DNA from: Phycisphaeraceae bacterium
GTDB lineage: Bacteria; Planctomycetota; Phycisphaerae; Phycisphaerales; UBA1924
Assembly: GCA_019636495.1 (NCBI GenBank)
Contig: JAHBXL010000005.1
Location: 124,001-188,000 of the forward strand
Length of the DNA stretch: 64,000 bases
Direction of reading: 5' to 3'
Position numbers and translations under genes: made by a program. Each line of letters starts with the position of its first letter. Positions within the stretch are counted from its first letter, which is position 1. A model generated the notes under the pieces. The model had not been told where the DNA came from. It saw only the letters and a program-made list of their open reading frames with translations, and made no database searches. Of this stretch, positions 2,830 to 49,110 are shown piece by piece.

Positions 2830-2932
2830 GCGCCGGAGACCGAGCCCCGGACCCCGGAACCCGGAACCCGAGCCCCCCACATCCCACATCCCACATCCCA
2901 CATCGCACATCCGACATCCCACTTCCCACCTC
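2830..2932 (-). repeat. Heptamer tandem array, composite (CCCGG type then CCACATC type)
   Basis: From 2830 six 7-bp units of the form NNCCCGG/A run to 2871. After a phase slip, eight units of CCACATC and close variants run from 2877 to 2932. On the minus strand the second set reads GATGTGG, the same family as 7624-7791. The last unit overlaps the aminotransferase stop codon (2931-2933). Confidence 0.85.
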
Positions 2933-7623: not shown

Positions 7624-7791
7624 GGATGTGGGATGTGGGATGTGGGATGTCGGATGTGGGATGTCGGATGTGGGATGTCGGATGTGGGATGTCGGATGTG
7701 GGATGTGGGATGTGGGATGTGGGATGTCGGATGTGGGATGTCGGATGTCGGATGTGGGATGTCGGATGTGGGATGTCGGATGTCGGATGTG
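7624..7791 (+). repeat. 24-copy perfect heptamer array, (GGATGTS)24
   Basis: 168 bp consist of 24 consecutive 7-bp units, all GGATGT followed by G or C; no other variation occurs. The seventh bases in order are GGGC GCGC GCGG GGCG CCGC GCCG. There are no spacers, so it is not CRISPR. All six frames are free of stops, and the plus strand offers an ATG every 21 bp in each frame. Confidence 0.97.
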
Positions 7792-10831: not shown

Positions 10832-10897
10832 GCCCCCCCCCCACCCCCACCCCCCCACCCCCACCCCCCACCCCCACCCCCCACCCACACCCCCACA
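10832..10897 (+). repeat. C-tract array upstream of psd, 13-bp period
   Basis: Runs of C5 to C8 separated by single A. After the first interval, A-to-A distances of 6 and 7-8 alternate, giving a rough 13-bp period. The minus strand is a series of G5-G6 runs with strong quadruplex potential. Confidence 0.8.
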
Positions 10898-10944
10898 CCC
10901 AGGCGGGGGAGAGGGGCGCTGAGGCGCATCGTGGGTTCGGCCGC

Positions 10945-30983: not shown

Positions 30984-31764
30984 GTTCGTGCCGCACGACC
31001 CAGCGTCGTGCATCCTCCGGTGTGGGCCGCACTCCCTTGCAGCGCAGCAGGTCGATGGACCATCCTGGTCCGTGCTCGTTGAACGATGCGGGACAGACGA
31101 GCCAGCGCGTCCGCGCGGCGGAGAGATGGGCCCGCTCGCGCGAAGGGCGCGCCAGCAGCGCGAGCGCCCCCCCGTTTCCCTCTGCCGCGCCCGCCGCGGC
31201 GGCGAGTTGGCAGCGGCGCGATTCGGCCATGGTCAGGCCGGAGGCATCGGCGATGATGGCGCAGACGCCGGCGCAGCGGAGCGAGAGATCGATCGCCCAG
31301 ATGCGCTGGTCGCGCGTGTCGCAGGAGACAAAGAGGCTGCGCGAGAGGAGATCGCGCGGCATCGCCGGCGGGGAGGGATGGCAGCGCGCGCCGATCCACA
31401 CCACCAGCCCCGCGCGGTGCATGGTCGCGCGGTGCGCCAGGTGCAGCAGGATCGTCAACGGCGGGAGCCACCCCCCCCCACTCCCCCCTTGCTCCACCCC
31501 CCCACTCCCCCCTTGCTCCACCCTCCCACTCGCCTCGGCGCTCTCGTGCAGGCCGAACCACTCGTGCACCGAGTTCAGCGCAAGGCCGCCGCCGAGCGCG
31601 CGGTCGATGTCGGGCCATCCGGTGGGGATGCGCGCGGTGCGCGGCGAGGCTTCAGCGCCCTCGCGGCATTCGACGGCCTCGATCGCCGCGCGAAGGGCGA
31701 GACGATCGGATGCGGTTGCGGCAGGGGTAACGGCGGCCGGGAGGTCTCCGACGATTGATAGCAT
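30898..31764 (-). CDS. imuA: ImuA (RecA/SulA-like mutasome subunit)
   Basis: 288 residues with ATG 31764. The frame extends to 31824, but a consensus promoter ends 6 nt before 31764, favouring the shorter form. The opening TGWPDIDRALGGGLALNSVHEWFG is the hallmark of the ImuA/RecA-like family; the Walker motifs are degenerate. It is required with ImuB and DnaE2 for SOS mutagenesis. A 24-bp tandem duplication gives VEQGGSGG twice (about residues 83-98). First gene of the operon. Confidence 0.88.
   Translation of the reverse strand: MLSIVGDLPAAVTPAATASDRLALRAAIEAVECREGAEASPRTARIPTGWPDIDRALGGGLALNSVHEWFGLHESAEASGRVEQGGSGGVEQGGSGGGWLPPLTILLHLAHRATMHRAGLVVWIGARCHPSPPAMPRDLLSRSLFVSCDTRDQRIWAIDLSLRCAGVCAIIADASGLTMAESRRCQLAAAAGAAEGNGGALALLARPSRERAHLSAARTRWLVCPASFNEHGPGWSIDLLRCKGVRPTPEDARRWVVRHEHATGDVYLVPESPARDGAAGQPPQRRTA
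31474..31521 (-). repeat. imuA: 24-bp tandem duplication inside imuA
   Basis: 31474-31497 and 31498-31521 are identical 24-bp C-rich units; on the coding strand each encodes VEQGGSGG. The period is a multiple of three, so copy-number change would keep the frame. Confidence 0.85.
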
Positions 31765-37521: not shown

Positions 37522-38391
37522 ATGCTGCTGACGCTCGCTGCCAGTTCGATGCGCGCCCGGCTCCATCTCAAGCCCGGCCGCGCGCCCGCCGGGCAGATGC
37601 GGCTGACCGACCTGCCGCGGCACGCGCGGGACGCGCTGGGGCTGTATGGCCTGAACATCTCGACGGATTTGCTGGCGGGCGCGGATGTGCCGCAACTGGA
37701 CGCGCTGCGCGATGCGGCGGATAAGGCGTCGTGCCCGTGCCTGGTGCTGATCAAGCCGGATGCGCTGCCGTTCTTCACCGACGACGACACGAAGGGGGAT
37801 GCCGCGGTCGAACGGATGACGCGGGTGGTGCAGGCGGCGCACCGGCTGGGGTGCAATGCGGCGGCGATGTTCATCGCGGGCGAGGGGTTCGAAGCCGGAA
37901 CCGACACGGCGGACCTCGCCGCGGAGCGGTTGCGGAAGGTGATGGCGGTTGCGGAGAAGCGCGAGGTGAACCTGCTGATCGGGAGCGGGACAGCGCCGGG
38001 GGACGTGCAGCCGGGCCCGACGAGCAACCCGGAATCGCTGACGGAACTGATCAAGCGCGTCGGCGGGTTCCGCATCGGGACATTTCCGGATTTTGAGACG
38101 GCGTCGAAGTCGGACGACCCGCTGATGTACCTGCGCCGGCTGACGCCGTATGCCGCGGCGGTGACGGCGGCGGTGGGGAACTTCAAGAAGACCAGGAAGG
38201 GCATGGAGCACGAGGGGTACGACCTGACGGAGTATGCCAAGACGGTGCTGAGCGTCGGGTACACGGGGACGCTCGCGCTGGACTATCGTGGTGTTGGAGA
38301 CGCTGATGCGGCGATCCGCCTTGCCCGGGCCGCGCTGGAGACGGTCTCGGGCGTGGAGGGGGCCGAGAGCGTGGAGGTGACGGAAGAATGA
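37522..38391 (+). CDS. TIM-barrel sugar phosphate isomerase/epimerase-like protein
   Basis: 289 residues. Pattern of the AP-endonuclease-2/xylose-isomerase-like superfamily: YGLNISTDLL early, regular beta-alpha units, TPYAAAVTAAVG and a closing GYTGTLALDYRG strand. The metal ligands are not obvious (a DFE and an E near 210), so catalytic competence is uncertain. It overlaps cmk by ATGA, so both are co-transcribed. Substrate unknown. Confidence 0.7.
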   Translation: MLLTLAASSMRARLHLKPGRAPAGQMRLTDLPRHARDALGLYGLNISTDLLAGADVPQLDALRDAADKASCPCLVLIKPDALPFFTDDDTKGDAAVERMTRVVQAAHRLGCNAAAMFIAGEGFEAGTDTADLAAERLRKVMAVAEKREVNLLIGSGTAPGDVQPGPTSNPESLTELIKRVGGFRIGTFPDFETASKSDDPLMYLRRLTPYAAAVTAAVGNFKKTRKGMEHEGYDLTEYAKTVLSVGYTGTLALDYRGVGDADAAIRLARAALETVSGVEGAESVEVTEE

Positions 38392-39206
38392 CCGAGCCCG
38401 ACCCCACGACGAAGGCGGCCGGCGCGGTCGGCCGGACGCTGCTGGATTCGATGGGTGCGAACATCGTCGAGGTGGAAGTGATGCCCAAGCGTCCGACAGC
38501 GGGTGCCGCGAAGGGGAGCGGCGCGGGGCTGATCGTCACGATCGACGGCCCGGCGGGGACGGGCAAGAGCACGGTGGCGCGTCTGCTGGCCAAGCGGCTT
38601 GGTGTGGAGTTTCTGGACACGGGGGCGATGTACCGTGCCGCGGCGGCGGTGGCGATCGACGCGGGCATCGGCATGGGCGCGCCCGACAAGATCGTCGCGC
38701 TGGTGGCGTCGCAGGACATGCACTTTGAGTGGGAGTCGGACCCGCCGGAACTGGTCTGCGGCGGCAAGTCGATGATGAAGCGGATCCGCGAGGCGGATGT
38801 GACGCGGATCGTCTCGCCGGTCGCATCCATCCCCGGTCTGCGGCGGGACATGGTGCGGAAGCAGCGGGCCATCGCGCGAGCCCACCCGCGGCTGGTGACG
38901 GAGGGCCGCGACCAGGGGAGCGTGGTGTTCCCGGATGCGGATGTGAAGTTCTATCTGGACGCGTCGGCGCAGGTGCGTTCGCGGCGGCGGTTCGAGCAAC
39001 TGGTTGCGCAGGGCACGATCAAGGGTGAACCGGCCGAAGAGCGCGCCCTTCTGCAGGAGATCGTGGCGCGGGACCTCTCGGACTCGACGCGGCGCGATGG
39101 GCCGCTGATCTGCCCGGAGGATGCGGTGCGGATCGATACATCCGACATGACGCTCGAACAGGTCGTCGATGAACTGGAGAAGCGTGTGAGGGCACGGGTG
39201 AGGTGA
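38388..39206 (+). CDS. cmk: Cytidylate kinase
   Basis: 272 residues, start ATGA-coupled to the isomerase. A ~45-residue N-terminal extension precedes the core. P-loop GPAGTGKST, LDTGAMYRAAA, and the EGRDQGSVVFPDADVKFYLDA segment (usually EGRDIGTVVFPdA) identify (d)CMP kinase. It phosphorylates CMP and dCMP for nucleotide supply. The I-to-Q and T-to-S changes in the EGRD motif are notable but conservative overall. A heptamer array overlaps its stop codon. Confidence 0.92.
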   Translation: MTEPDPTTKAAGAVGRTLLDSMGANIVEVEVMPKRPTAGAAKGSGAGLIVTIDGPAGTGKSTVARLLAKRLGVEFLDTGAMYRAAAAVAIDAGIGMGAPDKIVALVASQDMHFEWESDPPELVCGGKSMMKRIREADVTRIVSPVASIPGLRRDMVRKQRAIARAHPRLVTEGRDQGSVVFPDADVKFYLDASAQVRSRRRFEQLVAQGTIKGEPAEERALLQEIVARDLSDSTRRDGPLICPEDAVRIDTSDMTLEQVVDELEKRVRARVR

Positions 39207-39267
39207 TGTGGGACGTGGGATGTCCGATGTGGGATATGGGATGTGGGATGTCGGATGTGGGAGGTAT
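39205..39267 (+). repeat. Heptamer array, 9 units (GATGTGG type)
   Basis: Nine 7-bp units from GATGTGG to GAGGTAT, with GACGTGG, GATGTCC and GATATGG variants. The first unit begins inside the cmk TGA stop (39204-39206). Confidence 0.85.
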
Positions 39268-39290: not shown

Positions 39291-39653
39291 ATGAACGAAC
39301 AACAGATGATTGCTCGGACCCGTGATTTTGCATTGCGGGTCATTCGACTTGTGAACTCTCTGCCGCCGGGCCGCACTGAGGAAGTGCTTGGACGACAGTT
39401 GCTTCGTTCAGCGACTTCCGTCGGCGCGAACTACCGTGCGAGCCGCCGCGCCAAGTCTCCGGCAGATTTCATCAGCAAACTGGCGATTGTCGAAGAAGAG
39501 GCCGACGAGTGCGGATACTGGCTTGACCTGCTGGGAGCATCCGGAGTGATCCGGCACAAGCGCCTTGCCGCCCTCGTCGCGGAGTGCGACGAGATCACCG
39601 CCATCATCGTGGCCAGCATCAAGTCCGCCAAGCGTCGCCGCGCTGTCAAGTAG
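39291..39653 (+). CDS. Four-helix-bundle protein (23S rRNA intervening-sequence protein family)
   Basis: 120 residues, normal length. The pattern RTRDFALRVIRLVNSLP...LGRQLLRSATSVGANYRAS and the later FISKLAIVEEEADECGYWLDLL is the S23/IVP four-helix-bundle family, widespread and of unclear function. It sits between two heptamer arrays (39205-39267 and 39658-39776). Confidence 0.88.
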   Translation: MNEQQMIARTRDFALRVIRLVNSLPPGRTEEVLGRQLLRSATSVGANYRASRRAKSPADFISKLAIVEEEADECGYWLDLLGASGVIRHKRLAALVAECDEITAIIVASIKSAKRRRAVK

Positions 39654-39657
39654 CCCC

Positions 39658-39776
39658 CCCCATCCCACATCCCCCATCCCCCATCCCACATCCCACATCC
39701 CACATCCCACATCCGACATCCGACATCCGACATCCGACATCCGACATCCGACATCCGACATCCGACATCGAACATG
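39658..39776 (-). repeat. Heptamer array, 17 units, containing the plsC start codon
   Basis: Plus-strand units are CCCCATC, CCACATC and CGACATC (minus-strand GATGTSG). There are eight consecutive CGACATC, and the last unit is GAACATG, whose ATG (39774-39776) starts plsC. It begins 5 bp after the stop codon of the previous gene, so it is the entire spacer. Confidence 0.95.
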
Positions 39777-40442
39777 CCTCTTCGCTCTCTCGATCCCACG
39801 CAGCCGCTGTCGCAGATCCTGTTCTACAGGTTCTGCTACTGGCTGGTGATGTTGCCGGTCACGCTGCTGTATCGCTTCCGCATTTTCGGAGCGGGAAACC
39901 TGCCGCGGCGGGGAGGTCTGCTGGTGGTGTGCAATCACCAGTCGCACTGGGACCCGCCGATCCTCGGCATCTCCTTCCGCACGCGCAACATGGCGAGCAT
40001 CGGGCGCGAGGGCCTCTTCCGCGTGCCGATCTTGTCGCAGATCATCCGCGGGCTGGGGTGCATCCCGATCAAGGAAGATGAGGGCGATGCGGGCGCGATC
40101 CGCGCGGCGATCGCGGAACTGAAGCGGGGCCGGGTGATGCTGATCTTTCCGGAGGGCACGCGCACGCCCGATGGCGAGATCAAGGAGTTCAAGCGCGGCG
40201 CGTGGGTGCTGCTGTCGCGCGCCAAGGGCGATGTGCTCCCCGCGGCGATCGAGGGGGCCTTTGACTCCTGGCCGCGAAGCAACCACCTGCCTTCTCTCTT
40301 CGGCCATCGCATCGCCGTCTCGCTCGGCAAACCCATCCCGTTTGAGGAACTCAAAGCGCTCGGCCCCGAACGCGGCCTGGCTCGCCTGCGCGAAGAGGTG
40401 CAGCGCCTGCACACCGAACTGGCGGAGAAGATGGGACGGTGA
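39774..40442 (+). CDS. plsC: 1-acyl-sn-glycerol-3-phosphate acyltransferase
   Basis: 222 residues. Acyltransferase motif I NHQSHWD (H-x4-D catalytic pair), motif III FPEGTR and the IPIKEDEGDAGAIR segment are complete; a hydrophobic helix lies at about 20-35. It acylates lysophosphatidic acid to phosphatidic acid, upstream of CDP-DAG and PssA/Psd. The start codon is the last unit of a heptamer array, with no Shine-Dalgarno. Confidence 0.92.
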   Translation: MPLRSLDPTQPLSQILFYRFCYWLVMLPVTLLYRFRIFGAGNLPRRGGLLVVCNHQSHWDPPILGISFRTRNMASIGREGLFRVPILSQIIRGLGCIPIKEDEGDAGAIRAAIAELKRGRVMLIFPEGTRTPDGEIKEFKRGAWVLLSRAKGDVLPAAIEGAFDSWPRSNHLPSLFGHRIAVSLGKPIPFEELKALGPERGLARLREEVQRLHTELAEKMGR

Positions 40443-49021: not shown

Positions 49022-49026
49022 TGGAG

Positions 49027-49110
49027 GTTCGGGTTCCGGGTCTCGGGATCCGGGGTTCGGGGCTCTCAATCCCACATCCGACATCCGACATCCGACTTCC
49101 CACATCCCGC
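49027..49110. repeat. Composite heptamer array, 12 units in one register
   Basis: Five units of the NTCCGGG type (GTTCGGG TTCCGGG TCTCGGG ATCCGGG GTTCGGG), one spacer unit, then ATCCCAC and three ATCCGAC, TTCCCAC and ATCCCGC, all on an exact 7-bp period from 49027. It is almost the entire spacer before yidC. Confidence 0.88.

Follow-up and report, generated by a model that had tools for sequence, protein, structure and literature searches.

The locus examined lies within a 64,000-nt stretch of DNA from a Phycisphaeraceae bacterium (hereafter the window), in which cmk is followed on the same strand by a G-rich array of heptamers, a gene of the S23 family, a C-rich array of heptamers and a plsC-type acyltransferase gene (Table 1). 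The original prediction had concerned the second of these arrays, which was said to comprise 17 units, to fill the 120-nt spacer upstream of plsC and to end in the plsC ATG; this description was borne out by TRF and by listing of the units. TRF reported a repeat of period 7 (39657–39769; 16.1 copies, 96% matches). In register, the 17 units run from eight of the CCCCCAT/CCCACAT type through eight of CCGACAT to a degenerate CGAACAT, followed by a G. The ATG called as the plsC start (39774–39776) stands where the array ends and shares its AT with the last unit (GAACATG phase), and nearly all of the 120 nt between the stop codon of ORF 39291–39653 and this ATG is array. Dinucleotide shuffles predict 0.00 three-unit matches in the window, where 45 were observed.

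Two components of the locus had been missed: the gene upstream of the plsC array, which encodes an S23/IVP protein, and, beyond it, an inverted array of the plsC-side heptamer. The first unit of this 5′ arm is overlapped by the TGA stop codon of cmk (39204–39206). When the 5′ arm was aligned with the reverse complement of the 3′ arm, the two matched over 58 nt with no gap (score 40.5), and folding of the insertion region as RNA gave a minimum free energy of −249 kcal/mol (z = −6.6 relative to 100 shuffles). TRF, the fold and the arm alignment thus place an inverted-repeat stem enclosing the S23 ORF at the cmk/plsC junction.

Table 1. Features of the cmk–plsC locus and solo heptamer arrays in the window.
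Feature	Coordinates	Strand	Evidence
cmk, (d)CMP kinase	38388–39206	+	PF02224 E 2.4e-63; TIGR00017 190.5 bits
Whole insertion, predicted long RNA hairpin with S23 ORF in loop	39204–39776	+	RNA folding; absence in relatives
5′ arm, ∼8 heptamers of GATGTGG type, G-rich on sense strand	39205–39262	+	TRF, 8.3 copies
S23 / 23S rRNA intervening-sequence protein gene (IVP, four-helix bundle), 120 aa	39291–39653	+	PF05635; TIGR02436
3′ arm, 17 heptamers CCSACAT, C-rich on sense strand, plsC leader	39657–39773	+	TRF score 149; unit listing
plsC-type acyltransferase, start at array end	39774–40442	+	PF01553 E 1.9e-25; likewise in sister G001
Solo array, CCSACAT heptamer, beside stop codon of minus-strand gene	2881–2922	+	TRF
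Solo array, CCSACAT heptamer, 23 units	7628–7788	−	TRF
G-rich GGGTTCC-type array directly followed by C-rich ATCCSAC array, no S23 gene between	49026–49107	+	TRF

The S23 ORF scored 66.6 bits against PF05635 (cut-off 33.8) and 92.6 bits against TIGR02436 (cut-off 24). The AlphaFold model of its product (pLDDT 95.5) is a four-helix bundle that matched 2rld best (Z 17.8) and also 2gsc (Z 16.5). S23/IVP proteins are common, and structures have been solved since 2006; to our knowledge, they have no known function. The model also matched Avd, a protein of diversity-generating retroelements (Z 14.4–14.5; 4dwl and 8ub8), and since the fold is that of Avd, binding of the hairpin by the S23 protein is a fair guess. 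A search for reverse transcriptases (RVT_1, PF00078) returned no match in the window genome or in five relatives. An Avd-like reverse-transcriptase route thus has no support in these six genomes; retromobility of the Avd type, if it occurs, would have no visible enzyme.

The cmk loci of 30 genomes were compared, and at 24 of these cmk is followed by a plsC-like gene. Apart from the window genome and its sister (G001), the genes overlap in most cases (TGATG, ATGA) or are no more than ∼50 nt apart (in one case 120 nt), and their junctions bear neither arrays nor an S23 gene; among the 30 cmk loci, an S23 insert at cmk/plsC was found in the window genome only. Since cmk and plsC overlap or nearly touch in relatives lacking the arrays and the S23 gene, the intervening segment is an insertion. 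A Shine–Dalgarno sequence had been predicted to be lacking before plsC, and none is visible; none is apparent at the junctions of the relatives either. As their plsC genes start at or beside the cmk stop, this absence is not a product of the array, and it fits a coupling of plsC to cmk. In sister G001, one heptamer unit (GATGTGGGA) follows the cmk stop and two stand at the plsC start (...CCCACATCCCACATG), the last of them running into the ATG. The slot between them is filled by a DUF559 (PF04480) gene on the minus strand (L035, 962–1384), flanked by the inverted repeats CCCTCTCCCC...GGGGAGAGGG. Strong inverted flanks with no heptamer period were also seen at 6 of 12 Planctomycetota DUF559 loci, which suggests that these represent a second single-gene hairpin element. 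As for the window genome, the array before plsC is likely to be the 3′ arm of an inserted element, made up of a G-rich heptamer array, an S23 gene and a C-rich inverted array, whose hairpin would act in the transcript.

The arrangement is not confined to this locus. The two remaining S23 genes of the window genome also stand between inverted heptamer arrays, of other sequence (GGGTTTC-like and GGGGAAG-like), and S23 genes were present in 151 of 294 Planctomycetota genomes. Complementarity of the arms was assessed by aligning the 150 nt upstream of each gene with the reverse complement of the 150 nt downstream, the 99th percentile of mispaired flanks serving as threshold. This threshold was exceeded at 20 of 32 and 75 of 119 S23 loci in two sets. 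In a merged set covering ∼20 phyla, it was exceeded at 99 of 160 S23 loci but at none of 28 ParE loci, and the arms of the remaining ∼38% of S23 loci were short, decayed or absent. A period of 7 (or 14) on both sides was found at 87 of the 160 S23 loci and at 0 of the 28 ParE loci; at a few S23 loci the period was 8 or 9. Different loci have different heptamers, and arm polarity is nearly constant: among 95 arm pairs, the 5′ arm was G-rich in 88 and C-rich in 6. Chance matching of the arms was ruled out by controls using mispaired flanks, pseudo-ORFs, ParE loci and permutation of orthologous sites. At 20 S23 loci, most of them with weak arms, Rfam detected no rRNA context. The layout of a gene inside inverted repeats is general for S23. 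These elements lie between co-directional genes (median distances of 5.5 nt after the stop codon and 16.5 nt before the start codon), and an array serving as the leader of the next gene is thus common, plsC being one case. Searches of the open-access literature found no publication that connects heptamer arrays to S23 genes, and an earlier description may exist elsewhere.

The arms change together. At the sdhA–S23–sdhB site, the element was found in nine Bacteroidota genomes (L119, L121, L127, L138, L146, L151, L172, L175 and L189) with differing arm units, and at groES–S23–groEL it was found in two Planctomycetota, the same site being devoid of the element in two congeners (the names of these and other host genes were read from translated sequence). 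Over these and further orthologous sites the unit differed between species, yet 5′ arms paired better with their own 3′ arm (mean 18.9) than with swapped arms (11.3; permutation P = 5 × 10–5), and the sdhA–S23–sdhB set taken alone gave P = 1.6 × 10–4. These results support the idea that the feature kept is the pairing of the arms, whether through selection or through correction by template switching, which the data do not separate. Some orthologous sites may have received independent insertions with different units, and mutation bias alone could have kept the arms matched.

At 15 of 162 loci (13 when one duplicate and one doubtful case are left out) the element apparently lies within a host gene. 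In genome G073 (L232), dnaE2 contains an S23 element of ∼140 codons in an open frame, while dnaE2 is uninterrupted in its congener G024 (L253), which makes a clean pair of occupied and empty sites; other hosts include N6/N4 DNA methylases. In every intragenic copy the host frame is open through the element, and relative to the S23 ORF it is always the same alternate frame. That these copies contain no stops is partly a selection effect, since openness defined the set. By a fairer measure, open alternate frames numbered 17 of 324; in 15 of the 17 the host frame was open on both sides, always in the same frame, against ∼1.6 open cases expected in that frame after synonymous shuffling. As the host frame stays open, the host protein is probably translated through the element, by analogy with the palindromic elements of Rickettsia. 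The S23 copy of the window is intergenic and involves no in-frame insertion into a gene, whereas related loci such as dnaE2 of G073 do.

Heptamers of the plsC type also occur on their own. Pattern searches, on which the genome-wide array counts rest, located CCSACAT at ∼20 further sites of the window genome with no S23 gene, including those starting at 2881, 7628 and 49069 in the window; the double array at the last of these looks like a collapsed or mosaic element. Many solo arrays occupy one of the two arm positions, with a G-rich sense strand just after a stop codon or a C-rich sense strand just before a start codon, and some lie inside open frames. In L076, two CCSACAT arrays (1978–2005 and 2270–2297) fall in a long carB-like open frame and are apparently translated within the protein. 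Tandem arrays that are likewise C-rich but have periods of 13 and 24 were noted in the window at 10833–10901 and 31473–31531. A search for S23 relics beside the solo arrays of the window genome returned one weak match only, which does not establish that solo arrays are always decayed S23 elements. Given that ∼20 arrays of this genome have no S23 gene, arrays must persist or spread without one.

The nearest known thing is the intervening sequence (IVS) of 23S rRNA genes, as in Coxiella (PMC4990558), with which the window element shares its core anatomy, i.e. an ORF of the S23 family in an inverted-repeat stem within a transcript. In Coxiella, three heptamer repeats (GACAGAT) even precede S23p directly (PMC4990558). 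The window element differs from rRNA IVSs in that it lies between the protein genes cmk and plsC rather than in a 23S rRNA gene, and in that its arms are tandem heptamer arrays. Heptamers are among the commonest longer simple repeats of bacteria, and their role has been called unresolved in the literature. Those of Xanthomonas (GGGNATC) and Nostoc (GGGGAYT) form G-rich intergenic arrays, often as inverted pairs in Xanthomonas (PMC4692102); their G-rich strand is sense after stop codons and antisense before start codons, which is the polarity of the arms described here. That study ties them to G-quadruplexes, and neither S23 nor four-helix-bundle genes were found to be mentioned there. The TAACTGA repeats of Beggiatoaceae and cyanobacteria stand, like the plsC array, directly before start codons with no Shine–Dalgarno sequence, but the study describing them presents them as direct repeats, proposes a regulator of translation and mentions no S23 gene (PMC4679880). 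Hairpin insertions are also known in the form of Rickettsia palindromic elements, tolerated in frame in genes and also in RNA genes, and of NEMIS/Correia elements, NEMIS being cut by RNase III in mRNA (PMC2229807). Both kinds are short and have their own frame fused to that of the host, whereas intragenic S23 copies carry a separate S23 ORF in another frame. The best reading of the window element is that of a hairpin element resembling a 23S rRNA IVS, but residing in operons and protein genes.

We infer that such an element acts and spreads at the RNA level. In the cmk–S23–plsC transcript, the arms would pair into a single long hairpin whose loop contains the S23 ORF, as in rRNA IVSs, and cleavage of the RNase III type, or the fold itself, would separate the messages. 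The leader from which plsC is then translated would be rich in C and form one half of the hairpin. The S23 protein, which resembles Avd, might bind the hairpin and so favour its retention or spread; the arms would drift in length by slippage, with template switching, or selection for pairing, maintaining their match.

The original prediction had attributed to the array a control of plsC by repeat length, similar to phase variation, in which slippage alters the distance of an upstream promoter or regulator site to the start codon. The position of the start codon at the array end stands, in the sister genome too, and array length differs between the two genomes (2 units in G001 and 17 here, a comparison of two species only); the eight CCGACAT units, being a homogeneous block, point to recent expansion. 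Precedents exist in hmw1A of Haemophilus, where expression is known to be controlled by heptamer number and is lowered by it (PMC8262952), and in the aforementioned TAACTGA heptamers of Beggiatoaceae (PMC4679880). However, nothing that was found favours such a control of plsC over the hairpin reading. A simple scan for sigma-70-like promoters detected none between 38300 and 40500, and plsC is coupled to cmk in relatives. Moreover, the array has an inverted counterpart on the far side of an S23 gene, and its CCSACAT unit recurs at ∼20 unrelated places, beside many unrelated genes; it is thus not specific to plsC. The array is not a stand-alone control region of plsC, control by repeat length is improbable, and any effect on plsC would stem from the hairpin rather than from promoter spacing.

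It might also be argued that the arrays are a neutral by-product, in which polymerase slippage grows the heptamers, template switches that correct palindromes invert the copies, and S23 genes are passengers. Units that are locus-specific and fast-changing, the many solo arrays, and the report that, among longer simple repeats, most genomes have heptamers as their commonest class (cited in PMC4679880) agree with this; yet the arrays are strongly linked to S23 and not to ParE genes, their polarity is fixed (G-rich 5′, C-rich 3′), and filled and empty sites show the whole unit together with its gene, all of which makes this explanation unlikely. Inverted ends, a single ORF and empty sites would suit an element resembling a DNA transposon, with the heptamer arrays as its ends and with the S23 protein or a transposase of the host moving it at the DNA level, and another single-gene element (DUF559) occupies the same cmk–plsC slot in G001. 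The end sequences, however, are not conserved even within one genome, the S23 protein, a small bundle of helices, bears no resemblance to transposases, and no clear target duplication was seen, such that movement of this kind appears unlikely. The hairpin element acting in the transcript is preferred to these alternatives. As a wider proposal, put forward tentatively, S23 genes in heptamer-armed hairpins may belong to a single, widespread class of RNA-hairpin elements, selfish or regulatory, of which rRNA IVSs would be a special case. The scattered heptamers of Xanthomonas, Nostoc, Beggiatoaceae and the window genome would be detached arms, and some copies would invade host genes, the host frame being kept open across the nested S23 ORF.

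The link between S23 genes and heptamers ties together two long-unexplained features of bacterial genomes, giving the repeats a likely origin and the S23 protein a likely substrate, namely its own arms. It also predicts where such elements should be sought: between co-directional genes, after stop codons, before start codons, and in frame inside genes. For plsC, a story of phase variation is replaced by a testable hairpin in the cmk–plsC transcript.
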